Shown: piece by piece, positions 1,170 through 36,565 of the stretch | Numbering within the stretch: the stretch's first letter is position 1 | Layout: every line of letters begins with the position of its first letter | NCBI GenBank assembly: GCA_035934015.1 | Contig: DASYYH010000003.1 | Coordinates: 1 to 64,000 of the forward strand | DNA: 64,000 nucleotides | Direction of reading: 5' to 3' | DNA from: Candidatus Acidiferrales bacterium | GTDB lineage: Bacteria; Acidobacteriota; Terriglobia; Acidiferrales; UBA7541 | The notes under the pieces: model-generated | What the model saw: only the letters and a program-made list of their open reading frames with translations | The model's database searches: none | Told to the model about the DNA's origin: nothing | Position numbers and translations under genes: made by a program

Positions 1170-1706
1170 ATGCAGCACAAATGACGGGCAGCGGCCGAGA
1201 ATCTCGTACTCGCGGGCGAAAAAGCGCGGGCCGCGCAGAGATGCGAAGGCTCAGCCTTCGCGCTTCGGGCGCGCGCCAGAGGAGGAGGGTTTACGCGGCT
1301 GCGCCGAGAGTTGAAATTACGGAGGACGGGACAATGGGTAGCCGACTCGTTGTGTCGCGTGTCCAAAGTGCGCCGGAGAAAAAGAATTTACGCGACGCAG
1401 CGGCTCAGCGCGTCGTAACTGAGCCCGAATGGCCCAGCGCTCAGGAATTGGCCAGGCTAGTTCGTGCTGCAAATGGCAGATTCTTCCTACGCGACTGCAG
1501 CGAGAGTTGAAATTGCGCGCATGGAGGCGGCAGGGCGATGGAAGCACTGGGTTAGCGGCAATGTGCGAAAACGCGGATGGCGAGACGCTTCAATTCCCCT
1601 CTGACGCTTCGATGGGAAAAATCTTCGCCAACATCGGAGCTGCGCGGCGCGCGGAGATGCGAAGGCGGGGCCTTCGCGCTTTGGACGCGCGCCAGAGAAA
1701 AAGAAT
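1170..1706 (-). pseudogene. degraded Rhs tail with internal repeats
   Basis: On the minus strand around 1212-1180 the codons read REYEILGRCPS. This is the same signature as the Rhs core 'REYEILGRWPSPDPAG' in the three larger copies, but it quickly runs into stops. Between about 1228 and 1735 a degenerate unit recurs three to four times at irregular spacing. It includes 'agaatttacgcgactgc' and 'gagagttgaaatt'. An inverted pair 'gcgaaggct/agccttcgc' lies at 1241-1261. I read this as a fourth, decayed Rhs tip eroded by small duplications. Confidence 0.5.
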
Positions 1707-2234
1707 TTACGCGACTGCTGCGGCGATGCCGGCCGGGTCGGGCGAGGGCCAGCGGCCCAGAATCTCGTATTCGCGATACGCCGCGTCGTAGAGATTCGTC
1801 GTGGTGTTCTCCGCGTTCCCCGCAAACGCAATGTTCGTCACGCCCGTGCTGCCTGAAGCTGCATACGTCTCGCTCCTTCGGCTACGCTCAGGACAGGCTC
1901 CCGGCGCATACGCCAAATCATTGTACATCGTCCGTGAGGTCGTGGAAGCGAAGCGCGAACTCCCGATCCAGTCGGAATGCTGATAATACGGCGACGAGCC
2001 GCTGGACTGCCACACCTCCGCCGTCTCGCCCGGCATGGGAACCCACGCTTTGACGAACGTTTGGCCATTCATCAACTGCATCTGGAATCCTGTGGGAGAG
2101 TACTGAATTTGCGTGTAGCTGCCTGATTGCCCTTGCTCCACCATGCGTCCCAACGCACCATAGGTCATGGTGACAGAATCAATCGTCGTGGGTAGCGCTG
2201 CCACGGAAGAGTCGTGATCTACGAAAAACTCCAT
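1707..2234 (-). pseudogene. Rhs core fragment, truncated tip (Rhs tip 1)
   Basis: The 175-residue fragment matches the Rhs repeat-associated core seen in the neighbouring copies. It runs from 'YGALGRMVEQ' through 'FQMQLMNGQTF' and 'YYQHSDWIGSSRF' to 'GRWPSPDPAG', and stops about 7 residues later. There is thus no variable C-terminal tip. The first 20 or so residues do not match the other copies and there is no Rhs body upstream, so independent expression is doubtful. It carries the shortest form of a palindromic insertion ('CPERSRRSE'). It is probably a cassette that lost its toxin end; it could still donate core sequence for recombination with a full-length rhs gene elsewhere. Confidence 0.7.
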
Positions 2235-2282
2235 ACTCCAAAAAGACCAAAAAACGAAGCCCGACCAACCCGCACTCGTCCC

Positions 2283-2717
2283 TCACGGCCTTGTCGAAAG
2301 CTCAATCTTTGCCAAAGCAGTTCGATAGGCCACGAAATAACCGAGAGGCCCACTGAATAACCACACGACAATAGTGATAGTGATGGCGAAGTTCGCCGAG
2401 ACCAAGCCCATCTTTACCGCCGAGTAAGACAGCGCCGTCACGGCCAGCTCGATGAATGCTGTGGATGCGATGGCCATGTTGCGAGCGCGCCGCTTCGGAG
2501 GGTCTTCGCGCCGTCGGTTTATTCTATCGAAGAAAGGCCCAACCACAATTGGCGCGACTGCCAAGGCGATGTACGGACCAACAAGTCTGTGCACAGATAT
2601 CTTAAAAAGCCATAGGCCCAAGAACAGTGATCCCGTCTCCAGCAGTAGCCAGGTCCCCAGATACCAGAACATCCATACGAAGCAACTCTCATTGGCCCTG
2701 GAGAGTGAAAGCTTCAT
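2283..2717 (-). CDS. small multi-pass membrane protein, possible Rhs-tip immunity
   Basis: The protein has 144 residues. I chose the ATG at 2717 because AGGAGG sits 7 bases upstream; the frame also extends upstream to 2789 without such a site. Four hydrophobic segments are visible, at about residues 12-35, 42-62, 82-105 and 110-132, with a basic loop 'RINRRREDPPKRR' between the second and third. I do not recognise the family. It lies just upstream (in transcription) of the truncated Rhs tip 1 and downstream of tip 2. That is the usual place for an immunity gene, and a membrane immunity protein would suit a membrane-acting toxin. This role is inferred from position only. Confidence 0.6.
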   Translation of the reverse strand: MKLSLSRANESCFVWMFWYLGTWLLLETGSLFLGLWLFKISVHRLVGPYIALAVAPIVVGPFFDRINRRREDPPKRRARNMAIASTAFIELAVTALSYSAVKMGLVSANFAITITIVVWLFSGPLGYFVAYRTALAKIELSTRP

Positions 2718-3064
2718 GGCGCGCCTCCTACGATCCGGGGCCACAGGTGACTGCCTGCTTGATTGCTGAATACGCCCTCTTCGTCTCAAAGATGCTGATG
2801 CCCGTCAGGGCGACACCCCCCTGCCGATACGGCTACTGCTCCAAAGCTAGCCGCTGCGCTTTGTTTTCAACACGTTAACCGGGAGCGCCCGAAGGTTAAC
2901 CGCCAGCGCCGGAAATTTTGTAAGACGTTGATTTTTCGATGGTTCCTATACAGCAACCCAAGTTGCTGTGCAGCACCCTTTTAGGGGTGACGTGTCCCTA
3001 AGAACACCCCGTGCGAAGCACGGCTCTTTACGGCGCTCCCCGGCGCTCCCCGTTAACCAGGTGG
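2718..3064. other. gene-free spacer with short inverted repeats
   Basis: I see no gene in this stretch. It contains the palindrome 'cagcaacccaagttgctg' (2951-2968), two variants of 'gttaaccg..agcgcc' around 2874-2920 and again near 3050, and the 13-base inverted partner (2989-3001) of the sequence at 1001-1013. These look like mobile-element or REP-type debris between cassettes. Confidence 0.45.
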
Positions 3065-3553
3065 CTAACCCCTCGCTCTCATCCGCCGGGACTTGACGTA
3101 AACTATAAATAGAACTGCCACAGCGATGACATCGAATGCGACGCCCAACGGAACGTGATAATCGAACCAGGCGTTTAAGAGGAGCACGAGCACGACGATC
3201 ACCCAGAACACAGGGGAACGCCCCTTGAATCGATCAAAAAATGTAGGCCGCACTGGTTGGATGGTGTGCTCGCCTTTTGGTGAAGATTCGGGAATTTTGG
3301 AACCTAGTACACGTCCGCCGAATAGTTCTCGTCCCCACTTGTCAACTTCTACGCCACAACTGGGACACGTCCAACCACCCCACATCTCTTGGCGAAGAGA
3401 CTGCGGATGTCGCAGCTTTGGAAGCGGCGTGTTGCAGCGCGGGCAAGAAACATCGCAAGGATTGATTCCCCACCTGTTCTTTGCAAGAGTTCCGTAAATC
3501 ACTACGGCCCCACCGACAGCCAGCAAACCCAGAATCACGACCAGAGGAATCAT
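3065..3553 (-). CDS. membrane protein with internal zinc ribbon, possible immunity of Rhs tip 2
   Basis: The 162-residue protein starts at ATG 3553, with AGGAAG 8 bases upstream. An N-terminal membrane segment (about residues 2-23) is followed by a soluble part with two CxxC pairs ('CPRCNTPLP' and 'CPSCGVEVD'), a likely zinc ribbon. Two closely spaced hydrophobic segments follow near residues 112-152. It begins 47 bases after the stop of Rhs tip 2 on the same strand, the standard place for a toxin tip's immunity gene. I know of no described immunity family with this layout, so the role is inference. Confidence 0.65.
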   Translation of the reverse strand: MIPLVVILGLLAVGGAVVIYGTLAKNRWGINPCDVSCPRCNTPLPKLRHPQSLRQEMWGGWTCPSCGVEVDKWGRELFGGRVLGSKIPESSPKGEHTIQPVRPTFFDRFKGRSPVFWVIVVLVLLLNAWFDYHVPLGVAFDVIAVAVLFIVYVKSRRMRARG

Positions 3554-3600
3554 CGCCGCTCTTCCTTTCGACCGCGCTGTGCGACCAGTTCGCCCGGGCC

Positions 3601-5064
3601 CTAAGACGGGCCGTAGGCTCCGGTGTTAGAGCAAACAAAAGTAGCCGCAGCGCCCAAAAACACACCTGCCCCTGCACCTGCCACGCCCCCAACGACTCCC
3701 CCTACGATCGCACCGGGGATGGCACCAAGGCCAGCCGTGGGAACTCCTAGGCCATCTGCCCCTGCAATTGCCCCTCCTATGGCACCCTTTGTTGCGCCGC
3801 TCGCCATCCAGTTCAATATCCCACCGGAAGGAGAGTGTCCGCAAAGGTCCCATTTGGCTGCGGCCTTAGCTTTTTGCCACAGAGTCGGCGACGGCTGCGG
3901 TGTCGGTGTTTGCGGTGATTGCAGTGACTGCGGTGATTGCAGTGACTGCGGTGGCTGCGGAAACTGGGGACTGAATATGAAAGCGGTCCCCGTTGGTTGG
4001 AAGGGGTCGACTGTAAATGTACAAGCCACAACCGGGCAGAACGGCTGTGGCTGCGACGAGCTAACCACTGGAATGTTGTTTATCCCGAAAAGAACGGGAG
4101 GCTGCCCAGATACTCCCTGACCAGGTTGGAATCCCCCGTTGGGGATTTGTCCGCTATCGTCTCCGACGTAGGCACCATCGAAGGTGCCACTTCCGCCAAC
4201 GCCAAGGGACCCAGACCAATCACTAAAGTAATTGCCGCCGCCGCCGAAGGGATTCTGGTGGATGAAGCAGCCGCTCTGCTGCTGAGGAGGATCGGCCTCT
4301 GCATCGCTGGCGTCTGTATCCGACGGCCCGTCACCGGAAGCCTGCTGCGAGGTGTCCGTGGGCGTCGCTTCCACCGTGGTACATGACCAAGTTCCCAACC
4401 GATCCATCAGCATCAATGGATTGTTGGTCACATAACTGTAGCGATTCCAGCTTTGCGGATTGGCCGGATTCGCGGCGGCCATGCCTGCCGGATCGGGCGA
4501 GGGCCAGCGGCCCAGAATCTCGTATTCGCGATACGCCGCGTCGTAGAGATTCGTCGACGTGTTCTCCGCGTTCCCCGCAAACGCAATGTTCGTCACTCCC
4601 GTGCTGCCTGAAGCTGCATACGTCTCGCTCCTTCGGCTACGCCCACCACGGTGGGCAAGCTCAGGACAGGCTCCCGGCGCGTACGCCAAGTCATTGTACA
4701 TCGTCCGTGAGTAAGTGGATGCGAAGCGCGCGCTCCCGATCCAGTCGGAATGCTGATAATACGGCGAAGCGCCGCTCGCCTGCCACACCTCCGCCGTGCC
4801 GCCGGGCATGGGAACCCACGCTTTGACGAACGTTTGGCCATTCATCAGCTGCATCTGGAATCCGGTGGGCGAGTACTGAATTTGCGTGTAGCTTCCCGAT
4901 TGTCCTTGCTCTACCATGCGTCCCAGCGCGTCGTAGGTCACCGTGACGGAATCCAGGTACGCAGGCGGTACGCAGCGCTGCTTAAAGTCTCGGTCCAAAG
5001 ACGCCATGTCATCATCCGGTGGAGGATCGATTTGTTGCAAAGGGAAGCGTGGTGGGCGTCCCAC
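3601..5064 (-). CDS. orphan Rhs C-terminal tip with glycine-zipper tail (Rhs tip 2)
   Basis: The frame has 487 codons from a GTG at 5064. Rhs homology begins only near residue 38. Core motifs follow, including 'GRWPSPDPAG' at about 185-194 and 'NNPLMLMD' near 215. The remaining ~260 residues are variable: acidic/Gln-rich, then Gly-rich, then Pro/Gln repeats ('PQSLQSPQ'). The last ~70 residues form a glycine-zipper hydrophobic segment (GxxxG spacings around 'GAIPGAIVGGVVGG'). Known Rhs proteins release their tip as a toxin; such a tail suggests membrane insertion rather than nuclease activity. Without the Rhs body it is probably a silent orphan tip, expressed only after recombination. Confidence 0.7.
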   Translation of the reverse strand: MGRPPRFPLQQIDPPPDDDMASLDRDFKQRCVPPAYLDSVTVTYDALGRMVEQGQSGSYTQIQYSPTGFQMQLMNGQTFVKAWVPMPGGTAEVWQASGASPYYQHSDWIGSARFASTYSRTMYNDLAYAPGACPELAHRGGRSRRSETYAASGSTGVTNIAFAGNAENTSTNLYDAAYREYEILGRWPSPDPAGMAAANPANPQSWNRYSYVTNNPLMLMDRLGTWSCTTVEATPTDTSQQASGDGPSDTDASDAEADPPQQQSGCFIHQNPFGGGGNYFSDWSGSLGVGGSGTFDGAYVGDDSGQIPNGGFQPGQGVSGQPPVLFGINNIPVVSSSQPQPFCPVVACTFTVDPFQPTGTAFIFSPQFPQPPQSLQSPQSLQSPQTPTPQPSPTLWQKAKAAAKWDLCGHSPSGGILNWMASGATKGAIGGAIAGADGLGVPTAGLGAIPGAIVGGVVGGVAGAGAGVFLGAAATFVCSNTGAYGPS

Positions 5065-5124
5065 TGAATCCGCGAGACCACGAAGCCGCCCGATTCTGAC
5101 TCCTTCTCGGCTTCGTGTCCGCGC

Positions 5125-5400
5125 TCATTTAGACTGGCCCCTCTGTCGCCATGCCAAGATCTCGCGCGTAAACCACCACCATAGAGTAGACACAAAAAGC
5201 ACAACGCCGATATCCACGATAGCTTCAAACCACCGCCACGGGTATCGTAGGCCAGCTCGTCCTGCAGCCGCCCTGAACGTTACGTAATCTATCGCACGAT
5301 ACAGAATGATAAAAGGGAGACCGAAGCGGAGTACGGACTGCCAGAAACTGGCGCACTTGAGACTCCCTTTCGCTAGCTTCTTCGTAAATGGTTCATGCAT
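5125..5400 (-). CDS. 91-aa membrane protein, candidate immunity for Rhs tip 3
   Basis: I chose ATG 5400 because AAGGAG lies 7 bases upstream; the frame extends upstream to 5442 without such a site. The protein starts MHEPFTKKLAKGSLK. It has two hydrophobic segments (about residues 20-37 and 55-76) separated by a short basic loop, and a basic C-terminus. It begins 31 bases after the stop of Rhs tip 3 and ends 60 bases before tip 2, so it is sandwiched between tips. The pattern tip, small membrane protein, tip matches toxin/immunity cassettes with membrane targets. The family is unknown to me. Confidence 0.6.
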   Translation of the reverse strand: MHEPFTKKLAKGSLKCASFWQSVLRFGLPFIILYRAIDYVTFRAAAGRAGLRYPWRWFEAIVDIGVVLFVSTLWWWFTREILAWRQRGQSK

Positions 5401-5431
5401 CGTGATCTCCTTCCAATCCAGGTCACCCCAT

Positions 5432-6493
5432 CTAGCCGCCACCGCAGGCTGCGAGACTGGATTTCAATTGGTTTATGATCTGCCTTGTGTCGACATAGTT
5501 GTGATACAGCTGCACTGCGGTTCCCTCTAGTAGCCCCCCAAGGAAACCGACGACTGCACCGGGGACGGCTGCCTCCACACAACCGACCTCAACGGTGGTC
5601 ACGCACCCAATCACGGCCCCACTTACCGTCCCTGCGACTGCTGCCTTGAGTGGATTCTTAAACTGATTCCGAAGTGAATACAAATCCGCAGCAGCGGCGT
5701 CAGCATTTGTATAAGCTTCAATCTCGCAATTTTCTACATCATCAGGAGATTTGGGCGATGTCGGTGATTGCGGCGTGGGGTTGCCTGGGCTGCCGGGGCC
5801 GCCACCCCCACCGAAGCAGTCGCCGCCTCCGCAGAGGTCTCCGCCACCGGGGCCGCCTCCGCCGAGATTAAAAACATAACAAGTTTGATAATTGAGTTCT
5901 CCGACGCATAGCGTCTGCACTCCACCGCCGCCACCACCGCTGCTACTACCACCACCGCACGGCACTAGTGCCCCGTCTACGTCACAATAGCCCCCGTTGT
6001 CAGGACCACAATCGACGTCATTCGGGACTCCACCCTGTCTGGCTGCAGCATAGGAGAGCGGCCCTCGTTCTTGCATGCCTGCCGCGAAGCAGCCCTTCGG
6101 CCCGAACCCCGACGGATCGATCAATAGCAGCGGGTTGTTGAACACGTAAGCATAGCGATTCCAGCTTTGCGGATTCTCCGGATTCGCAGCCGCGATGCCT
6201 GCCGGATCCGGCGACGGCCAGCGGCCCTGAATCCCGTACTCCCGGTATTGCGCATCATACAACGCTGCCGACGTATCCTCGTTGTTCCCTGCAAACGCAA
6301 TGTTCGTCACTCCCGTGCTGCCCGTCGCTGCATACGTCTCGCTCCTTCGGCTACGCCCACCACGGTGGGCAAGCTCGCCCAGGCGGGCAAGCTCAGGACA
6401 GGCTCCCGGCGCATACGCCAAATCATTGTACATCGTCCGCGAGTAGGTGGATGCGAAGCGCGAACTCTCCAGCGAAGATTTGTTTTTTTCCAA
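5432..6493 (-). CDS. orphan Rhs C-terminal tip with Gly-rich and membrane-like tail (Rhs tip 3)
   Basis: The frame is 353 codons from a TTG at 6493 with no ribosome binding site. Rhs similarity starts abruptly at 'SSRFASTYSRTMYND', so this copy lacks about 100 core residues that tips 1 and 2 still have. 'GRWPSPDPAG' and 'NNPLLLIDPSG' mark the end of the core. The variable tip is Cys- and Gly-rich (long G runs), then has a soluble helical part, then a hydrophobic glycine-rich segment (around 'AVAGTVSGAVIGC' and 'GAVVGFLGGLLEG') and a short polar tail. It is most likely a silent toxin tip. The 5' junction near 6470 adjoins the virion module. Confidence 0.65.
   Translation of the reverse strand: MEKNKSSLESSRFASTYSRTMYNDLAYAPGACPELARLGELAHRGGRSRRSETYAATGSTGVTNIAFAGNNEDTSAALYDAQYREYGIQGRWPSPDPAGIAAANPENPQSWNRYAYVFNNPLLLIDPSGFGPKGCFAAGMQERGPLSYAAARQGGVPNDVDCGPDNGGYCDVDGALVPCGGGSSSGGGGGGVQTLCVGELNYQTCYVFNLGGGGPGGGDLCGGGDCFGGGGGPGSPGNPTPQSPTSPKSPDDVENCEIEAYTNADAAAADLYSLRNQFKNPLKAAVAGTVSGAVIGCVTTVEVGCVEAAVPGAVVGFLGGLLEGTAVQLYHNYVDTRQIINQLKSSLAACGGG
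6357..6392 (-). repeat. two nested 18-bp palindromic insertions inside Rhs tip 3
   Basis: Compared with Rhs tip 1 (1871-1900), tip 2 has an 18-base insertion at 4643-4660 containing 'cccaccacggtggg'. Tip 3 has the same 18 bases at 6357-6374 plus a second 18-base unit at 6375-6392 containing 'gcccaggcgggc'. Each unit ends 'gggcaagc' and keeps the reading frame (CPERSRR, CPELAHRGGRSRR, CPELARLGELAHRGGRSRR). The flanks 'ccttcggctacgc' and 'tcaggacagg' also occur in part at 17320-17336. Confidence 0.85.
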
Positions 6494-6646
6494 GCATTTT
6501 CTTGCGAGCGACGCCCTCGATTGTGTCCAACTTGATCAGCTACCGCTCACGATATACTGCACCATGGACAATCATCTTGGCAATGGCGCAAGGCTTGCGA
6601 GGCGGCAGAGTGATGGAGATGCTTCAGGCGCGCGGCGATTGTGGCG

Positions 6647-7411
6647 CTAGCGGCAATGGCCGGAGGAGCAGAGGGCGGCGGAGGAGATTGCGCCGCCGAT
6701 GAGGAGGAGTTTCGCGTCGTGGCCGAGGCGGCGCCAGAACGAGCCGCCCTTGAGCGCCTTGAGCGCGGCGTCGCGCTGCTCGCCGGCGGCGGAGAGTTCT
6801 TCGCCGGCGAGTTTGAGCTGCCGATTTTTTGTTTGTAAATCCTGCTGCGCGGCGGCGAGCTTCGCCTGGCATTCCTTGCACGATTCCACGTAGTCGCGCA
6901 GAGCGGGCAAGTCAATTTGCGGAATCGTGGCCAGCGCGGGCGGAAGCGAGTTCCCTGCTGGCGTTTGCGCGGGCTGGAGCGCGGATTTTGGCGCTGAAGA
7001 TTGTGGCGCAGCGGACGCAGCAACATTCGATGATGCTTGCGCGGAAGCGGCCGCGCGCGAAGTTGCAGGCACAGTGATTTCGACGGGTTCCGGCGTGGGG
7101 ATTTGCTTCGGAAGCCATGCGGCGATTTGCGCGGCGGTTTTCAGTTGTGCGACTTGCGCTCGCATCGCGGCGATTTGCTGCGCGGTGGCGCGATCGCGCG
7201 ATTGCTCGGCGGCGGTGAGCGCGTCGTACTGCTTTTTCTGCTGCGCGAGCAACTGGCCCTGTGCGGCGATGGTTGCGGTGGCGTGAAGCAAAGCGTCGTG
7301 CGCGGAGAGCCACTCCTTAAAAACAAAACCGCTGGCGGCCAGCGCAGCGACGAGAAGCGATTCGCGCCAGTATTTTGCGACGGCAAGCGTCGCCGTGGCG
7401 AACATGCCCAT
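6647..7411 (-). CDS. coiled-coil membrane protein of the phage lysis region
   Basis: The 254-residue protein starts at ATG 7411 with GGGAG 11 bases upstream. It has an N-terminal hydrophobic segment (about 13-32), then long Ala/Gln-rich coiled-coil stretches (about 40-95 and 175-225) separated by a Pro/Ala/Ser linker. A 'CKEC' pair near residue 177 and a hydrophobic C-terminus (about 232-250) complete it. It is the last gene of the virion strand, after holin candidate and transglycosylase. The topology recalls spanin-type envelope proteins, but I recognise no family and the two-membrane layout is only suggestive. Confidence 0.6.
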   Translation of the reverse strand: MGMFATATLAVAKYWRESLLVAALAASGFVFKEWLSAHDALLHATATIAAQGQLLAQQKKQYDALTAAEQSRDRATAQQIAAMRAQVAQLKTAAQIAAWLPKQIPTPEPVEITVPATSRAAASAQASSNVAASAAPQSSAPKSALQPAQTPAGNSLPPALATIPQIDLPALRDYVESCKECQAKLAAAQQDLQTKNRQLKLAGEELSAAGEQRDAALKALKGGSFWRRLGHDAKLLLIGGAISSAALCSSGHCR

Positions 7412-7740
7412 TGGAAAATCTCCCTTTGCGAATTTACGATTGCGATTTCATTTTTGCGCGTGGACGATTCGAGCGGGAAGTATTGCGACGACGTTTCAGC
7501 GACAGAGATTCGGATCTGCAGAGCCGCGCCTTGCAGGCGCGCGGGCAGGGCAAGCCCTGCCCCTACGAAGGCAACACACGCGGCGAGTTATTTCACGCCG
7601 TCTAAATTGGTGAAGTCGCGCGGCGGCGATGGCACAGGAGCGCGAATGGCGTCGAGCGCGCGGCGAAAAGTTGCAGCGCAGAAAAGCGATGCGGCGAAAT
7701 GGGCTGGAAGCCGGCGATCGCGCAGGATTTTATGGGCGCG
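7412..7740. other. spacer with REP-like palindrome; minus frame continues past the transglycosylase stop
   Basis: A GC-rich palindromic repeat (roughly 7528-7570, 'gcagggcaagccctgc' and flanks) lies here. On the minus strand, the frame of the transglycosylase gene stays open after its TGA (7741) for about 45 codons to a TAA near 7602. It reads '...RALDAIRAPVPSPPRD' and 'FTNLDGVK'. There is no ATG, GTG or TTG near its beginning, so I do not call a gene. Confidence 0.45.
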
Positions 7741-8217
7741 TCACGACGCGGTTTTGTATTTCTCGGCGCACGCGAGAACCTCGCTGGCGTAGGAAGGATT
7801 CGCGCCGCCGTTATAGGCCTGGAGCGCGTCGGGCAGATTGCCGTGCTGCAGGCGCAGCTTTTCGCTGAGCGCGCGGCATTGCCATTCGATGCCCGTCGCG
7901 GGATCGCACAGCGCGGCGAGACGGCCGCGATAGCCGAGTTCGCGCGCGAGTTCGCCCATCACCTGGCCGAGTCCCCAGGAGAACGCGCGAGCGCGAGCCT
8001 CGGTCGAATCATGCAGCGCGCCGGAAGCGAGCATGGGCGCGATGTAGCGCGTGAAAAAAGCGTCCTCGTAGCGAATGGTCCACGGCTGCCAAGAGCTTTC
8101 GCGCTCGATCTGGCCGCAGACGATGTGAGCGAAGAGGCCGTGCGCGGTGGCGATGGCGCGAGCCAAAGCGATGAGATCATCGCGCGCGATTGCGTTTTGA
8201 TTTTGCGTGGCCGACAC
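7741..8217 (-). CDS. phage lytic transglycosylase (SLT-like)
   Basis: The 158-residue enzyme is predicted to cleave peptidoglycan between MurNAc and GlcNAc at lysis or entry. The start is GTG 8217, with AAGGGA about 7 bases upstream. The transglycosylase signature is clear: 'CGQIERESSWQP' holds the likely catalytic Glu40, 'SWGLGQVM' corresponds to the family's GLMQ motif, and 'ALQAYNGGANPSY' is the typical AYNxG motif. There is no signal peptide, which fits release through a holin; the holin candidate starts 432 bases upstream and ends 36 bases before this gene. It closely resembles stand-alone phage SLT domains in length. Confidence 0.85.
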   Translation of the reverse strand: MSATQNQNAIARDDLIALARAIATAHGLFAHIVCGQIERESSWQPWTIRYEDAFFTRYIAPMLASGALHDSTEARARAFSWGLGQVMGELARELGYRGRLAALCDPATGIEWQCRALSEKLRLQHGNLPDALQAYNGGANPSYASEVLACAEKYKTAS

Positions 8218-8253
8218 AGCAATTCCCTTCCCGGCTTTCTTTCGCGCGAGGCG

Positions 8254-8649
8254 TCAGTTCCCTGCTGAATGCGGATCGCGTGCGTCGCGGATGTGATCGC
8301 GGTCGTTGGGATGTTCATCGCGAGAATCGCGATTATTTTCCGCACGCGCATCGGCTGAAGAATCGGCATCGCGCGCAAAACAATCGGACGGAGCGGCGTC
8401 CCATTCGCGCGGCAGCGGCGATTGGCGAAGATAGAGCGCGACGCCGAGAATGGCGCTCAAGAGCGCGGAAACACCGCCGATTTTGAGCGTGTCGTGAATG
8501 CCCGCAGCGAGATTGAAATGATGCGGGTCAATGCCGATGGCAGCGAAGCCGGTGACAATGCCGTTTGCGGCGCCGGAAATGGCCGCGGCGGCGATGCCTT
8601 TGAGCCAGAGTTCAGCGGAAAACCATTTGCTGGAAATTTGTGCGGGCAT
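8254..8649 (-). CDS. putative holin
   Basis: The 131-residue protein starts at ATG 8649 with AAAGGA upstream. Two hydrophobic segments (about residues 17-38 and 55-74) are followed by a highly charged tail rich in Asp and Arg ('ENNRDSRDEHPNDRDH'). Small size, two membrane spans, a charged C-terminus and a position immediately before the transglycosylase gene are the usual marks of a phage holin. I recognise no specific family, so the role rests on topology and context. Confidence 0.6.
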   Translation of the reverse strand: MPAQISSKWFSAELWLKGIAAAAISGAANGIVTGFAAIGIDPHHFNLAAGIHDTLKIGGVSALLSAILGVALYLRQSPLPREWDAAPSDCFARDADSSADARAENNRDSRDEHPNDRDHIRDARDPHSAGN

Positions 8650-8800
8650 GAATTTCCTTTTCTACGAGAGCCGCTCAAGTGCGCAGAATTGCGCGCCTAG
8701 TGCCGAGGAAATAAAAATGACGGGCTAGCAACGGCGCGGCGGCTATATGCGCGCTATGTTGGTTGGTATTGTGCTTATCCGGGGAGTAAAATGAGCCGTC

Positions 8801-9496
8801 ATGCCCACGAACCTTGACTCCTCTCGCAAGTTCTGGGATCAGAAGGCGCAGCAAAATCCCTACTGGTACATCTCTTCCTATGGCCCTTACGAAGGCCGAG
8901 ATCTGAAGGAATTCTGGCGCTCCGGGGAAAATATCTGGCAAGAAATCAAAACCACGATTCACTACTTTCCTTCACCTTCTGATGCGGTAGTCGAAATCGG
9001 ATGCGGCATCGGCCGGCTGACGCGGGCCATTGCTCCAGAGGTCAAAGAAGTTTTTTCGTTTGATATTTCCGAGCAGATGCTGGAGCTTGCGCGGCAAAAC
9101 GTTCCATCGAACGTAAAACTGAATCTCGCGGAAGGAACTTCGCTTTCCCCGGTCCCGAATGCGAGCGTTGATTTGGCGCTTGCCTATTGCGTGTTTCAGC
9201 ATTTGCCGACGTTGAAGGATTTCGAGTCTTACTTGCAAGCGATGCATCGCGTGACGAAGCCGGGAGGCATCATTGCATTCACGATTTGCGAGCGCCATTG
9301 GACATGGTCGCTTTTGCCACTTCTCAGACTTAAGGGCTTCGTAAAAAGCAAACTGCATCTTCAGCCGCCAGATCTCTATAAGAAGGAGTGGCTTGGAATC
9401 CGCCTGCCTCTGGCGCAGATTCGCTCTATCTGCCCTGTAAATTTAGAAGTGAAATATATCGGAGGCGGCCGAACGCTTCTCTGGGGCCGCGTCTAG
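8801..9496 (+). CDS. class I SAM-dependent methyltransferase
   Basis: The 231-residue protein has the Rossmann motifs of the Methyltransf_11/25 type. Motif I is 'VVEIGCGIGRLTRAI' (about residues 63-77), the acidic loop is 'SFDISEQMLELAR', and 'DLALAYCVFQHLP' and 'VTKPGGIIAFTI' follow. The substrate is unknown. It is a plus-strand gene between the holin and tail genes, transcribed against the virion strand, so it looks like cargo or a leftover bacterial gene. A 'ggggag' lies ~20 bases upstream of ATG 8801, farther than usual. In phages such enzymes can modify surface glycans or nucleic acid; nothing here decides. Confidence 0.85.
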   Translation: MPTNLDSSRKFWDQKAQQNPYWYISSYGPYEGRDLKEFWRSGENIWQEIKTTIHYFPSPSDAVVEIGCGIGRLTRAIAPEVKEVFSFDISEQMLELARQNVPSNVKLNLAEGTSLSPVPNASVDLALAYCVFQHLPTLKDFESYLQAMHRVTKPGGIIAFTICERHWTWSLLPLLRLKGFVKSKLHLQPPDLYKKEWLGIRLPLAQIRSICPVNLEVKYIGGGRTLLWGRV

Positions 9497-9528
9497 CAAG
9501 CTTCCCTGCACTCTCAAGCAACACACGA

Positions 9529-12500
9529 TTAGTGAACCGTCATGGCGCGCGGGGCGCGGATGACGTAGATGTGCACGTCGGTCTGCTGCCAGGTGTCGGA
9601 AAATTGATTGCCCGTGATGGGCAGCGAACGGCCTTCGCCGAGGACTTCGACGCTCGTTGCACCCGCTGGCGGATTCGCGAGCGTGAATGTCTCGGTGAAC
9701 GGCGACGCGGCGCTGCAAAGATTCGTGGCGAAGATGTATTGATCGGTTTCGCCGGTACCGGAAAGCGCGTAGGAGTGCGTCACAAAATTCGCGGGCGCGG
9801 CGGGCCAGAGCGAGGATTGCGTATAAAAATACGGCGTGTAGGCGCTTGTGACGTTGCACGCCGTGGCTGCGGAAACGCTCGACGAAACTGCGGAGACAAT
9901 CCCGCCGAGGCCCAGAACCGGCGAATCCACCACGGGCGTGAGCAGCACGGGCGCGAGCGCGCGGATTTCGTTTGTGGCGCGCTTCGAATCGAACCACGCC
10001 TGGATATTGTTGTTGAGCGGATTGCCGCCCTGCGAAGCGAAAACGGACGACTCAAGCCCGCTCGAATCGACCCAACCCCAAGTCATCGCATCCGCGCCGA
10101 GCGAGCCATAGACCTGCACGCCGATGATGGCTTTCCACATTTGCTTTTTCATTTCGGCATAAGGAAATCCGTCGTAATTTCCGCTGCCGAATTGTTGCAC
10201 GACCATCCACGACGGGCGCGCGCCGAATGTTTGGCGGCCTTCGTCGTCGGCCCAAACGTCCACGCGGCTGGGAAAACAACGCGGCTGGGATGCAGCGGCG
10301 CTATTCTGGCCGTACATATTGCAATTTTGCGTTGCGGATTCTCCCGTAGCGTATTCCTCGGGGCTCGGAGCAGCGTTGTAGCCGTAGGGGTCGTAGCCAG
10401 TGAGATCGCAGATGTAGCGGCCGAGCAAAACCTGCTCGGGGCCGATGAAGACGCACGCGGTGGGAAGATTGAGATTGTCGGCGAGGAGCGTTTGCTGCTG
10501 CTCCCAGAGCGAGCCATAGGAATAGAAGCCGCATTCATCGCACATATACATGCCACCGGCGGATTGCGGATATTCGGCGGTCATCAGATTGAAAAGCTGT
10601 CCCCACATCGTCGGGTCGGTGCCGGAGCCGCCGACGGGGCGGAATTGATAGGTCGTGTCGGCCGTGGGCGGAGGCGCGCCGGATTGAACGTTCGAGAGCG
10701 TGACGCTTACACTGCAAGGAATGTCGCCGCCGGAGCCGAGCATTCCGCTGACGCCGAGCGGATACTGAATCGCGAACGAACTGTTCGCGGGCGGAGTCGA
10801 AGTCGAGCTGGTGGCGGCGTAGATGTTCCAGCCTTCCCAGCGCGCCGTCGGACAGGCGGGCATGATGAAAGTGACGCTACAATTTGTGCCCGCGCACGAG
10901 GACGAAGATAAATTCACCGTGAGCGGCGAGGACGGAAGCGTATTTTCCGGCAGCCGCGTTGGCGAATTCCCTGCTGGATTCGGATTCGCAAAAGCGACGG
11001 CTTCGAGAAAAAGATAATTCGCGGAGATTGTGCCGCCTGCGGACGCGGTGACCGTTGGCGCGAAAGTCGGCGGCGTGGTGCAAGGCGATGCAGCTTCGCC
11101 GACGAGGCAGCTTGTCCAGTTGTTGAGAATCTGCCAGTGCGTCATCGGCGAGCAAAATTCCGAATAGACTTTCAGATATGGCGTGAGCGTGTCGTTCGGC
11201 GGCACGAGCGACGGATTGATGCCGGAAAAAGTGGAGAACGAGCCGAGGACGCCGGAAAAACCTTGCGAGCAGTAATCGGTGATGAACGAGCCGTTCTGGC
11301 GAGTTCCACCGGAAGGCGCGTTGATCGCTTGCGGCGCGGCATTCACGGGACCAAGCGAGCCGATGCCCTGGATGTAATCCGCGTCGGTGGTCTGGCCGAC
11401 GGTGGTGTTCGCGCGAAACGTCGCGCTCCAGCGATCGTATGTGCCGAGGAGAAATGTTGGCGATTGATGGTGCATCCAGACGCTATTGGGGTCGTACCAA
11501 TTTTCGAGCGTGGCGCGAAATGCGGAATTTTCGTAGAAGCCGGCCCATACGACGTCGTTATCAATGAGCGAAAGACCGCTTGTGAGATAGAGCGACGGAC
11601 AAATCCAGAATTGCTGGCCGACCGCCAGAGAACCATACTGCGACGGCGTGAATTGCCACGGCTGGACGGATTGCGGCGAGGCGAATGTGTCCGTGGCGAG
11701 AACGCCAGTCGCGCAATTCGCGCTGGTGGCCAGCACAATTTTCAGTGTGAGTTGCGAAAGCACGTCGCCGGGCGGCGGATCGATTGTGGTGACGCCCATG
11801 ATTTCGCCGGCGACGGGCGTTGCGCCAGTTCCCTGCATATTCCAGAACGGGCTTCCGGCACTTATCGGTTGAATTTGCGTGAAGCGCTTCGGCGGAACGA
11901 GATCGTTCCACAAATAGCCGCGATAGTTGGGATAGAGCAGAAACGAGCGCAGCGGAAACCATTCGTCGTCGATTTCGATGCGCGTGACATAGACGACGTT
12001 CTGCTGCTGGTTCGTCCATGTGACTGTGCCATCGGTCGTTGTGCCGCCGGTGGTCGCGTTCCACGATGGAGCGGAAGCGCCGCTCGTGCCTGCCGAGGTC
12101 ACTTGCTCGACGTTGCCGCTGGCGTCCACGATTTCCGCGCCGAGAGCATACGACGCGTTCGCAACCCACGCAGGAGTTTCGAGCGTGAAGCGTTCGTCGA
12201 GATTCGTATCGGAGCCATGCTCGGTGATATTCGGATAGAACTCGACGAAGTTTTGCACCCAGCCGGAATTTCCGCCGGTGGGGCCGCTGACGGTTTGCTG
12301 ATCGCGCGCGATAGATCCCGGACCGGCGCCATCGCCGTGATTGTTGTCGAACGTGGAGACGCTGAGGCCGCTGGCAACGGAGCCTGCGGGAATGTTGATC
12401 TCCCAGCGCACGAGCCATGCTTCGTGATTGTGCAGCGCGAAGCCGGCGTCGAAGACACGCAAATTCGGCGCGCAGCCGGCGAGTTTCATCGCGTAGGTGT

Positions 12501-12735
12501 CGCCGGGATAAACGACGCTCGATTGAACCGAGGCGCAGCCTGCTTCATAGGCGTAGCCCGTAAAATTGCCCGCGGAGAAATTCCAGTTCGCGCCGAGCTG
12601 ATTCGCCACCAACTGATCGGGGTTTGGAGGCAGAGAAGTTGCGCCGCCAGCCTGCGCGAAAAGAGGCAGGGCTGCGAAAGAAAACGCAGAAAAACAAGCG
12701 CACGCGACGAAGCATGCGATCGAGCGCCGTTGCAT
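9529..12735 (-). CDS. large secreted/tail-associated protein with phage carbohydrate-binding-type domain
   Basis: About 1068 residues from ATG 12735; a GTG at 12753 overlapping the stop of the preceding gene (TAGTG) is an alternative start. A signal peptide ends in 'AALPLFAQ'. About residues 230-290 resemble a domain common in phage tail proteins ('YALGAEIVDASGNVEQVTSA', then 'DGTVTWTN'). A later part around 'GWNIYAATSS' resembles another repeated tail domain. The last third ('VDVWADDEGRQTFG', 'SWMVVQQFG', 'GVQVYGSLGADAMTWGW') looks like a glycoside-hydrolase barrel. Translational coupling to the pectate-lyase-type spike suggests joint action on polysaccharide. The exact enzyme is unknown. 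Confidence 0.7.
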   Translation of the reverse strand: MQRRSIACFVACACFSAFSFAALPLFAQAGGATSLPPNPDQLVANQLGANWNFSAGNFTGYAYEAGCASVQSSVVYPGDTYAMKLAGCAPNLRVFDAGFALHNHEAWLVRWEINIPAGSVASGLSVSTFDNNHGDGAGPGSIARDQQTVSGPTGGNSGWVQNFVEFYPNITEHGSDTNLDERFTLETPAWVANASYALGAEIVDASGNVEQVTSAGTSGASAPSWNATTGGTTTDGTVTWTNQQQNVVYVTRIEIDDEWFPLRSFLLYPNYRGYLWNDLVPPKRFTQIQPISAGSPFWNMQGTGATPVAGEIMGVTTIDPPPGDVLSQLTLKIVLATSANCATGVLATDTFASPQSVQPWQFTPSQYGSLAVGQQFWICPSLYLTSGLSLIDNDVVWAGFYENSAFRATLENWYDPNSVWMHHQSPTFLLGTYDRWSATFRANTTVGQTTDADYIQGIGSLGPVNAAPQAINAPSGGTRQNGSFITDYCSQGFSGVLGSFSTFSGINPSLVPPNDTLTPYLKVYSEFCSPMTHWQILNNWTSCLVGEAASPCTTPPTFAPTVTASAGGTISANYLFLEAVAFANPNPAGNSPTRLPENTLPSSPLTVNLSSSSCAGTNCSVTFIMPACPTARWEGWNIYAATSSTSTPPANSSFAIQYPLGVSGMLGSGGDIPCSVSVTLSNVQSGAPPPTADTTYQFRPVGGSGTDPTMWGQLFNLMTAEYPQSAGGMYMCDECGFYSYGSLWEQQQTLLADNLNLPTACVFIGPEQVLLGRYICDLTGYDPYGYNAAPSPEEYATGESATQNCNMYGQNSAAASQPRCFPSRVDVWADDEGRQTFGARPSWMVVQQFGSGNYDGFPYAEMKKQMWKAIIGVQVYGSLGADAMTWGWVDSSGLESSVFASQGGNPLNNNIQAWFDSKRATNEIRALAPVLLTPVVDSPVLGLGGIVSAVSSSVSAATACNVTSAYTPYFYTQSSLWPAAPANFVTHSYALSGTGETDQYIFATNLCSAASPFTETFTLANPPAGATSVEVLGEGRSLPITGNQFSDTWQQTDVHIYVIRAPRAMTVH

Positions 12736-12752
12736 GCAGCGAAAGAGATTCA

Positions 12753-15700
12753 CTATTGCACCGTCCAGTAATTTGCGCCGTCGCTGACAAGCCAAACGCC
12801 CGCAGTGGGAATCGCGAATGTGGTCGCGCCGTTGATGTTGCAGCCGGAAGTGGTGATTGTCGGCGTGCCTGCGCCGGTCATTTTCAGCATTTCGCGCCAG
12901 CCGTTTGCGAAACTCGCGCCGTTCGGGCACGGAAGCGACACGGCGACCGCGGAAGAATTGTTGAACGTCGTGAGGCCGTCCTCATCGGTTGTCTGAATCG
13001 TGTAGGAAGTTCCGGCCTGTGCATTTACGGCGCCGTGCGCGGCGAGCGTGCGATTGGAATCGGCGCTCGGAGTGGTGGAAGATGCGCACCAGTTCCCCGC
13101 TTGCTGGCACGGATACAAAAACGAATTGAACGCGTTCGCCGGCGAGCCTGCGGCTTCGAAGTAGCCGGGATTCGTGTTGCTGCCGCCGCTGCCGCTTTGC
13201 ACAAAAACATACGATGGATTCGTTTGCGAGCCGGAGCCGAGCGTAAGGCTATTCTGGCTCGTCAGCGTGAGCGACGACGCGGTGAGAGGGCCGGTGAGCG
13301 TCAGAGCGTGAGTGCTCGTCGTATAAAAAAAGTTTGTCGCGTCGCCGCCGAATGCGCCGCCGTTATTGAATTGCACGGCGCTGCTGCCGCCGCCGGGAGA
13401 ACCGCCGCCACCGCTGCCGGATCCGCAGGCGCTCGACGTGACGGTGATAAGTCCCGGCGAGCCGCCAGCCGCGAGACAATTTCCGTTTGTCCACGAGCCG
13501 GTGAAATACGGAACTGTGCCGGAAACTCCGAGCAGCGACGGACCGCTCGAGCCGCTGGTCAGATTGGCGAGCATCGGCCCGGCGGCCCAGGCGTTTGCGT
13601 TCGATGAGCTTGTGCCGCTGACGTAGAACGTTTGCGTGCTGCAATCGCCGGACGTTGTTCCGACCGCGCCGCCGCCGAAAACATTCGACGGCCACGCGAA
13701 CGTCCACGGCCCGCCGCCGCCCTGGCAAATGATGAAATCGAGCCACTGGCCGGGCTGCATGTTTTCGAGCGTCACGGAGGTCACGTTCGCGTTCATAATC
13801 AGCTCGAACGTGTTGCCGAGGCTGGCGTCGAACGTGGCGGAATTTCCGGATTGCGTGACGATCACTTCGGCAGCGCTCGCCGCATATGTGCTGAGCATGT
13901 CGGGATGAGTCCCGGCGCCGAAGGGCGCGGCTACAAACGCGCTCGCGCCATTATTCGCGAGCGAAAATGCCGATGTCGTCGCGTTGGCCTGCCATGCTGG
14001 AGCGCCTGCTTCATTGAAATTCAACTGGCTCGCGCCGCTCTGCGAATCGATGCCCAGGCCGTAAAAATACGGCGTGCCGGGATTTTCGGCTGTGCCAATG
14101 GATTCGACGTCGCTCTCGATGAGCCCCGTCGTGTGCGTGAGCCACGCGAGCGGCTGTGCGTCGGAAATGTTGCCGAGCATGTTGATGTGCGCGGACGCGC
14201 CGGTGGACAAATCGTCGACGATGTTCTCGTGGCCGCACTGCGAAAACGAATTGCGCTCGATGTCCAGCACCTGCGACGTATCGACGACGATCGGCGAAGG
14301 CGGATAGGCGGTGAGGTTGCACTGCATGAAATTGTTGCTGAGGTTGATGGCTCCGGGCGTGGGCGTGAAGCCCTGCGGCGGAATCGAATTGTCGCCGAGC
14401 TGCACGTTGTACGACGGCGGATTGCTGCCCTGCTGCTCGAAATAATTGCCGGTGATCTGATAGGGCGAACCATAGAGCATCTTCAGGTTGCCGACGACGT
14501 TGCCCTCGAAATCGTCGTCTTCGATGTTGATGTCCGCGCCGTTGACGATGAGTGCGCCAACGTAGTCGGACTGGATGTAGCTGTCTTTGATCGAAAAATC
14601 GTTGTTCGAGCCGGAGCCGAAAACGCCGATGCCGAAGCCAGCGATGTAAACGTTTTCGAGCTTGCCGCAGCAGCCGAAGCTCGTGTAGCCGTTGGCCGTG
14701 GATGCTGTGCCCGCGGTCGCTGCGTCGTTCGTGAAAATTTTCACGCCATCGAGCTGCGCGCCATTGGGATCGTAGATCGCGGCGTAGGCGGTTGTGTTTA
14801 CCGCGGGACGAAAGCCGAGGTTGGCGAGCGTGCCTGCGAAGGTCCAGCTTGTGCCGATGGCCAGAGGCGAAGAAACTTGCAGCGTTTCGTTGTTGGGGTT
14901 CGAGGAAACGAAAACGTTCCAGCCGGTCGCGCCGGTTTCGCTCGCCGGCGCAGTCACTTTGAAGCACTGGCCGCTCGCCGTCGTGATTGTCGCTTCGGGC
15001 GAAACGTTCGTTTGACCCTGCGCGCTCACGTAGGTCGCTTCGACGTAATACGCTTCCGCCGGACAGCCGGAGCCGCTGACCGTTGTAAGCGCAGGGGCAA
15101 GAGGCGCGGCGAGCGGTCCGCCGATGGTCGTGGGATACTTCACGCCCATGTTGCTCATCGCGAAGCCTTGCGCGCTGATGTTGAGCGCGTTCTGCGGCGT
15201 CGCACCCTGAAAATCGATGTAGCTCGGCGGCGCGTTTTGCGTGATGAACTGAAAATGGCCGATGCCTTCGAAGGTCACGTTTGGCGTGGTGACGTTGATG
15301 GCGGAGGTCGTCATGCACACGCCCGGAAAACTGACGATGCCGCCGATGGCCGCGCCGCTTGTTGGCAGCGAATTCACCGCAGCCTGAATCGCTGCGGTGT
15401 CGTCGTTCGTGTCGTTACAGAGCGCGCCATAAGCGCGGACGTCGCGCGTGATGCCGGAGCCGCAGCCCGCCGCGCTGGAATTTGGGACGCAGCCGAGCGT
15501 GATCGTCTCCGTGAATGGGACGATTGCTTTGCCGGGCGAATAGAATTCGATGAAATACGTGCCGGGCGCGGCCCAGAAACTGAAGTTGCCATTCGTGTCG
15601 GCGAGAATCGGATTGGCCGCGGGCGCGGAGAGCGCGGGGTCGGCGTAGATAGCCGCAAGCGGCGCGCAAGGCTCGCCGACGTTGCCCGGGCTCGTGGGAT

Positions 15701-36477: not shown

Positions 36478-36565
36478 GGAGAGTGCTGCCAGAGAGGGCA
36501 CTGGACACGCCTCAGAAGCGTTGGGGGTTGGGAACAGCCTCGGAGTTCGAGTCTCCCACTCTCCG
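36478..36565 (+). tRNA. tRNA-like gene, best read as tRNA-Leu(CAG)
   Basis: A 7-bp acceptor stem pairs 36478-36484 (ggagagt) with 36558-36564 (actctcc), with discriminator G36565 and no encoded CCA. A T-arm has loop TTCGAGT and 4 good pairs plus one C-C mismatch. The anticodon loop CTCAGAA (36511-36517) on a 4-bp stem gives anticodon CAG. There is a long variable arm (GGTTG/CAGCC), as in Leu or Ser tRNAs. The D-arm region is longer than usual and hard to fold, so it may be a decayed or phage-borne tRNA. Confidence 0.5.

Follow-up and report, generated by a model that had tools for sequence, protein, structure and literature searches.

Why would a soil acidobacterium keep a row of Rhs C-terminal tips, together with genes for small membrane proteins, at a locus that has no Rhs body? 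The question is raised by the end of contig DASYYH010000003.1 of a Candidatus Acidiferrales bacterium (its genome is a draft with 28 contigs, 3.37 Mb and a completeness of 98.6%), from which a stretch of 64,000 nt was analysed (the window). Every element of the array lies on the minus strand, between positions 6497 and 1183. An initial annotation had taken the elements for displaced Rhs tips with their immunity genes, and our work supports this idea: Tips and partners are conserved together, tip B ends an Rhs open reading frame (ORF) of 1491 amino acids (aa) in a relative (G283), and a comparable locus is present in a genome of the same genus (G003). We consider it likely that the array consists of Rhs C-terminal toxin/immunity cassettes, displaced and orphaned, of an rhs locus that lost its body, with tips that would insert into membranes and partners that would be membrane immunity proteins. 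That we are dealing with Rhs tip/immunity cassettes can be said with high confidence; that the tips act by depolarising membranes is fairly probable, judged by analogy with characterised toxins. Read along the minus strand towards the contig end, the elements are the following (G, C and L numbers denote genomes, contigs and loci):

6480-6497, minus strand: stub of partner Z, its first ~6-8 codons, cut at the junction with core A (DNA alignment to G003:C304, L150)
6104-6484, minus strand: Rhs core fragment A, ending DPAG-X26-DPSG (TIGR03696, 2.6e-12; DPxG motifs)
5435-6103, minus strand: tip A, a Gly/Pro-rich linker and then a hydrophobic glycine-zipper C-terminus (homologous tips in G727:C160 and G283:C37)
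5128-5400, minus strand: partner A, 91 aa, with a strong Shine-Dalgarno (SD) sequence (genes with two transmembrane (TM) segments follow homologous tips)
4390-4957, minus strand: Rhs core fragment B, DPAG retained, second motif degenerate (DRLG) (TIGR03696, 4e-12)
3604-4389, minus strand: tip B, its C-terminal ~92 aa (3879-3604) a glycine zipper (alignments A2 and A6 of homologous tips; profile)
3068-3553, minus strand: partner B, 162 aa, an N-terminal TM segment, a 4-Cys zinc ribbon and a C-terminal two-TM hairpin (homologues; AlphaFold2)
2728-2811, minus strand: last ~28 codons of tip C (match by eye to a tip end in G050:C41)
2286-2717, minus strand: partner C, 144 aa, about four TM segments, with a strong SD sequence (64% identical gene in G050:C41)
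1707-2234, minus strand: truncated Rhs core without a tip (TIGR03696, 2e-5; 88% identical to core B)
1183-1214, minus strand: core remnant of ~32 nt, REYEILGRCPS (direct-repeat family D5; translation), after which the contig ends

Our argument starts from cassette B, for which the final ~90 residues of the tip served for comparison. The tip B family has an invariant Cys pair and a Tyr in the C-terminal zipper (alignments A2 and A6), and 8 of the 12 invariant columns of alignment A6 are Gly. Both tip A and tip B carry repeated GxxxG motifs within hydrophobic helices at their C-termini, in agreement with the glycine zippers initially described for the two intact tips. A tip B profile found matches in 9 genomes at E<1e-10. 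Searches with the core and the tip led to tip B ends in G017:C3 and G076:C128, each with a membrane zinc-ribbon gene directly downstream, and over the part that they have in common with partner B the encoded proteins are 52-61% identical to it. The same pair is present in G283:C92, a locus added by the partner search, and here tip B terminates the 1491-aa Rhs ORF, which has an RHS repeat match. Moreover, the tip profile identified G555, in which the protein encoded behind tip B (177 aa) is composed like partner B of a zinc ribbon and a C-terminal hairpin. Tip B thus stands beside a zinc-ribbon membrane partner at five separate loci, three of which were found without the partner search (G017 and G076 via the core, G555 via the tip profile). 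Among 58 distinct Rhs C-termini, a zinc-ribbon partner follows five of the six tip-B-type ends and none of the 52 others. There is some circularity in this comparison, as the partner had led us to one of the loci and four zinc-ribbon cases had gone into the profile; the script itself gave four out of five because the tip of G555 lies outside the scripted length limit. Tip B relatives in G547, G259 and G653, again from the tip profile, are followed by small TM genes, and only a 56-aa ORF lies behind the relative in G732. The tip B family offers a natural experiment in immunity: Related tips are accompanied by a zinc ribbon combined with one or two TM segments (G017, G076, G283), by a two-TM hairpin alone (G547) or by both modules fused (the window, G555). 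For the fused partner B, AlphaFold2 predicts helices at residues 2-27, 114-133 and 137-160, with a mean predicted local distance difference test (pLDDT) score of 70.

The other two cassettes have counterparts as well. Relatives of tip A are found in G727:C160 (BLASTP 2e-10, in one single comparison) and in G283:C37, where the tip comes after an Rhs core, and in both genomes a two-TM gene follows. Partner A has two hydrophobic segments by eye, one of which is above the TM threshold of the scan. A common family for all two-TM partners was not detectable in pairwise comparisons, and we therefore do not claim that they share one. As for the 144-aa partner C, the initial annotation had correctly recognized the gene and overlooked that it belongs to a third cassette, with a tip remnant of ~28 codons (2811-2728) in front of it. 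A 64% identical homologue of partner C in G050:C41 lies directly behind an Rhs core and a hydrophobic tip, and the end of this tip, ALTGAVVLGGAGVLQAERAVSAVKQAATCGSGL, resembles by eye the window stretch before partner C, ALTGISIFETKRAYSAIKQAVTCGPGS. This resemblance indicates that cassette C has been reduced in the window to the last tip codons and the partner. In G653, the neighbour of a tip-C-like end had no detectable relation to partner C. Since all three tip-partner pairings recur in other Acidobacteriota, in one of which tip B ends a full-length Rhs protein, we take these elements to be real cassettes.

If the cassettes are real, what would their products do? PADLOC, Pfam and NCBIfam searches with the tips and partners gave only the Rhs core above cut-off; judged by sequence, both are new families, although the kind of system to which they belong is known. 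The earlier statement that they match no described family holds in this sense, but not at the level of mechanism, where the models of Tse5/Tsi5, of the ionophores of contact-dependent growth inhibition (CDI) and of EsxX are known. With these precedents, it is plausible that the tips are membrane-targeting effectors. One might instead regard the hydrophobic C-termini as segments by which Rhs surface proteins are translocated or anchored in the membrane, and the small membrane proteins as accessory chaperones rather than immunity proteins, an explanation that we judge unlikely. It would fit with the absence of a catalytic domain after the zipper and with the occurrence of glycine zippers in non-toxic lipoproteins (weak matches to Gly-zipper Pfam families and to SlyB were obtained). 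However, the tips are polymorphic and are exchanged as units of tip and partner, like the toxin-immunity cassettes of polymorphic toxin loci, which as a rule swap as units (PMC3482391). Moreover, the Rhs protein of G003 bears an unrelated non-zipper tip and another partner, and the toxins with this layout that have been characterised in Rhs, CDI and type VII secretion systems are ionophores (PMC9637101, PMC11630599, PMC12744356).

Several observations weigh against displaced cassettes with membrane-inserting tips and membrane immunity partners. The structure model of tip B is a helical hairpin of low confidence (mean pLDDT 64), and a fold search with this model, which also bears on a relation to Tse5-CT, gave no significant match; PDB and fold searches with tip B and partner B were likewise without a significant match. 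When hydrophobic Rhs ends were compared with the other Rhs ends, neighbours with at least two TM segments were found for 13 of 23 versus 11 of 35 (p about 0.10). A general rule by which a hydrophobic tip calls for a TM neighbour is thus suggestive only, and given the weakness of this association our argument rests on co-conservation at the family level. Relatives of partner B with a zinc ribbon are also found outside rhs loci, in Mycobacterium (L094, L095, L097) and in pheS-pheT neighbourhoods (L064, L070), so that the partner B family is not exclusively devoted to immunity. These relatives suggest recruitment of the zinc ribbon, into rhs loci or out of them. Finally, the assembly is a draft of 28 contigs, with the array at the end of one of them.

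Are the cassettes still in use? The genome has Rhs cores at four loci, i. e. on C3 (the array), C6, C11 and C23, all of them in short frames with no body upstream. The RHS_repeat profile (PF05593) had no match anywhere in the genome, and a 1250-aa Rhs body query (from G068) matched here only with its last ~40 residues beside the cores, whereas the same query gave long matches in G003, G001, G283, G024 and G043. A full-length rhs gene, for which the initial annotation had proposed to search, was not found in this genome by either query; relatives do have one, with 1491 aa and tip B in G283 and with 1579 aa in G003. The genome therefore appears to have lost the delivery body; at 98.6% completeness, the evidence for its absence is good but not final. 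Without a body, the recombinational switching that had been envisaged for the array is unlikely today. The start signals differ between partners and tips: Pairing with the anti-Shine-Dalgarno sequence amounts to -8.8, -5.6 and -10.2 kcal/mol for partners A, B and C, which bears out the good ribosome binding sites reported for these multi-pass or zinc-ribbon proteins of 91, 162 and 144 aa, as compared to -0.7 and -3.3 kcal/mol where the frames of tips A and B have their first start codon. Since the tips have no start signals and there is no Rhs body, they are probably silent here. Orphan core-tip fragments are also present elsewhere in this genome (G000), at C11:371371-375112 (three in tandem), C6:154779-156778 and C23:309469; their tips are not glycine zippers.

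The cores themselves are preserved to different degrees. Rhs_assc_core (TIGR03696) matched fragment A (5432-6493) and fragment B (3601-5064) above the curated cut-off that the truncated core (1707-2234) does not reach; we regard A and B as securely assigned and the truncated copy as less so. The core copies form direct repeats of 269-295 nt with 72-90% identity, far above chance. Core A has both DPxG motifs of the aspartyl protease plug and core B has DRLG in place of the second one, whereas the truncated core has one motif and ends ~8 residues past DPAG, with neither a tip nor a membrane gene after it. Fragments in tandem without a body had been described correctly, but only two of them, A and B, rather than three consist of core plus tip, and the claim that each is followed by a small membrane-protein gene fails at 1707-2234. 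The cores also contain a palindromic in-frame element that differs between copies by growth steps of 18 bp (1868-1900, 4621-4670, 6336-6400): It reads CPERSRRSE in the truncated core, CPELAHRGGRSRRSE in core B and CPELARLGELAHRGGRSRRSE in core A, and an Rhs core on contig C11 has a similar insertion, ELARRGGRSRR. Three families of degenerate repeats (D6-D8), 77, 42 and 30 nt long, occupy 1226-1730; they are also found in G003:C304 at 5741-6158 and may represent a dispersed element.

The history of the locus can be read in part from G003. In this genome, a full-length rhs gene (1579 aa, with a signal-peptide-like start) is followed by a partner gene encoding a 168-aa protein with several TM segments and then by a displaced core-tip. 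A second copy of this partner, 84.5% identical, stands as a lone gene where the window array would begin, and this intact multi-TM gene (G003:C304, L150) occupies the position of partner Z. DNA homology between the window and G003 extends through the phage-like flank as far as window position 6480 and then stops, which indicates that the window retained the first codons of the orphan partner Z, joined to core A. By this alignment, the junction is the product of a deletion or recombination. Was the locus then simply left to die? Pure decay, i. e. a graveyard of a dead rhs locus in which neither tips nor partners function today, is a possibility that we doubt. It is suggested by the missing body, the truncated core, the 28 codons left of tip C, the degenerate protease motif of core B and the junction inside another partner gene. 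Yet three partner frames are open, two of them with strong SD sequences, and partner Z has been kept as an orphan in G003. Moreover, partner C has diverged from its G050 homologue with 0.25-0.27 nonsynonymous (dN) and 1.1 synonymous (dS) substitutions per site (dN/dS about 0.22-0.25, a value that averages in the time of the active locus), and for partner Z dN is 0.08 and dS 0.5-0.6. These values correspond on average to purifying selection on partners C and Z, part of it perhaps from the era of the active locus.

Upstream of the array lie endolysin- and holin-like lysis genes of a prophage-like region rather than a main rhs gene. This region (6647-50186, minus strand) encodes a terminase large subunit (PHROG 5.1e-41) and an endolysin, and at least from 6480 to 14000 it is 82-86% identical to G003 at the DNA level. 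It is interspersed with bacterial-looking genes on the plus strand and contains a tRNA-Leu (CAG) gene at 36478-36565, plus strand. That the array adjoins these genes, and that the same flank bears the orphan partner in G003, might indicate that the cassettes are cargo of the prophage and not remnants of a chromosomal rhs locus. We find this very unlikely: No related tip or partner was detected in IMG/VR with our queries, and elsewhere the cassettes accompany Rhs cores and bodies. In that database, partner B and the Rhs core had no relatives, and three matches of tip B turned out to be tape-measure-type phage proteins aligned via their glycine repeats; a viral origin of tip B was therefore rejected.

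Coming back to displaced cassettes of an rhs locus, the array was probably left by a succession of recombination and deletion events at a locus that no longer has its body gene. A full-length Rhs protein carrying such a tip would release it into a neighbouring cell, where the glycine-zipper helices would insert into the inner membrane and depolarise it, and the small membrane proteins would act as cognate immunity proteins in the same membrane. In the present bacterium the partners, if active at all, probably provide orphan immunity towards neighbouring cells in which such tips are still in use. It is tempting, though doubtful, to go further and to propose that this body-less bacterium keeps its scattered cassettes as a standing immunity island, in which partner B is a recruited membrane zinc ribbon fused to a hairpin and directed against a glycine-zipper ionophore. 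The zinc-ribbon-plus-transmembrane partner and the genome without an Rhs body are the interesting parts of this system. With our analysis, the few Rhs ionophore-like systems are joined by no fewer than three uncharacterised tip/partner families from Acidobacteriota, and orphan tips in a body-less genome raise the question whether immunity genes outlive the weapon.

Four known systems can be compared with the array. (i) The orphan rhs-CT/rhsI modules of Salmonella LT2 have the same anatomy, i. e. a core fragment and a tip without initiation signals followed by an immunity gene, in tandem and in one orientation (PMC3967940). There, however, a full-length main rhs gene upstream permits recombination, and none was found in the present genome. 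(ii) In Pseudomonas aeruginosa, Tse5 is delivered by the type VI secretion system (PMC9637101, PMC10684867), and its C-terminal Tse5-CT is a membrane-inserting, pore-forming toxin that Tsi5, a protein with two TM segments, blocks (PMC9637101). The array shares with this pair the combination of a membrane-inserting Rhs tip, as predicted here, and a small two-TM immunity protein. It differs in that no sequence relation was found, that the array tips have glycine zippers and that the G003 Rhs protein has a signal-peptide-like start. (iii) Among the CDI ionophores, a putative glycine zipper has been described, and their immunity proteins, 72-100 aa long, are predicted two-helix hairpins (PMC11630599). 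Their carrier is CdiA rather than Rhs, they have a separate entry domain, and no sequence relation was found; the hydrophobic helical C-terminus, which at least one group combines with a glycine zipper, and the size of the immunity proteins, as compared to partners of 72-103 aa, are nevertheless alike. (iv) EsxX is an LXG protein of the Staphylococcus type VII secretion system for which the soluble ExiAB is also required, in contrast to the array. Like the array tips, it has its glycine zipper at the C-terminus, and it uses this zipper to depolarise membranes; moreover, its polytopic membrane immunity proteins (ExiCD) survive as orphans in antitoxin islands (PMC12744356), much as the partners persist in the array.

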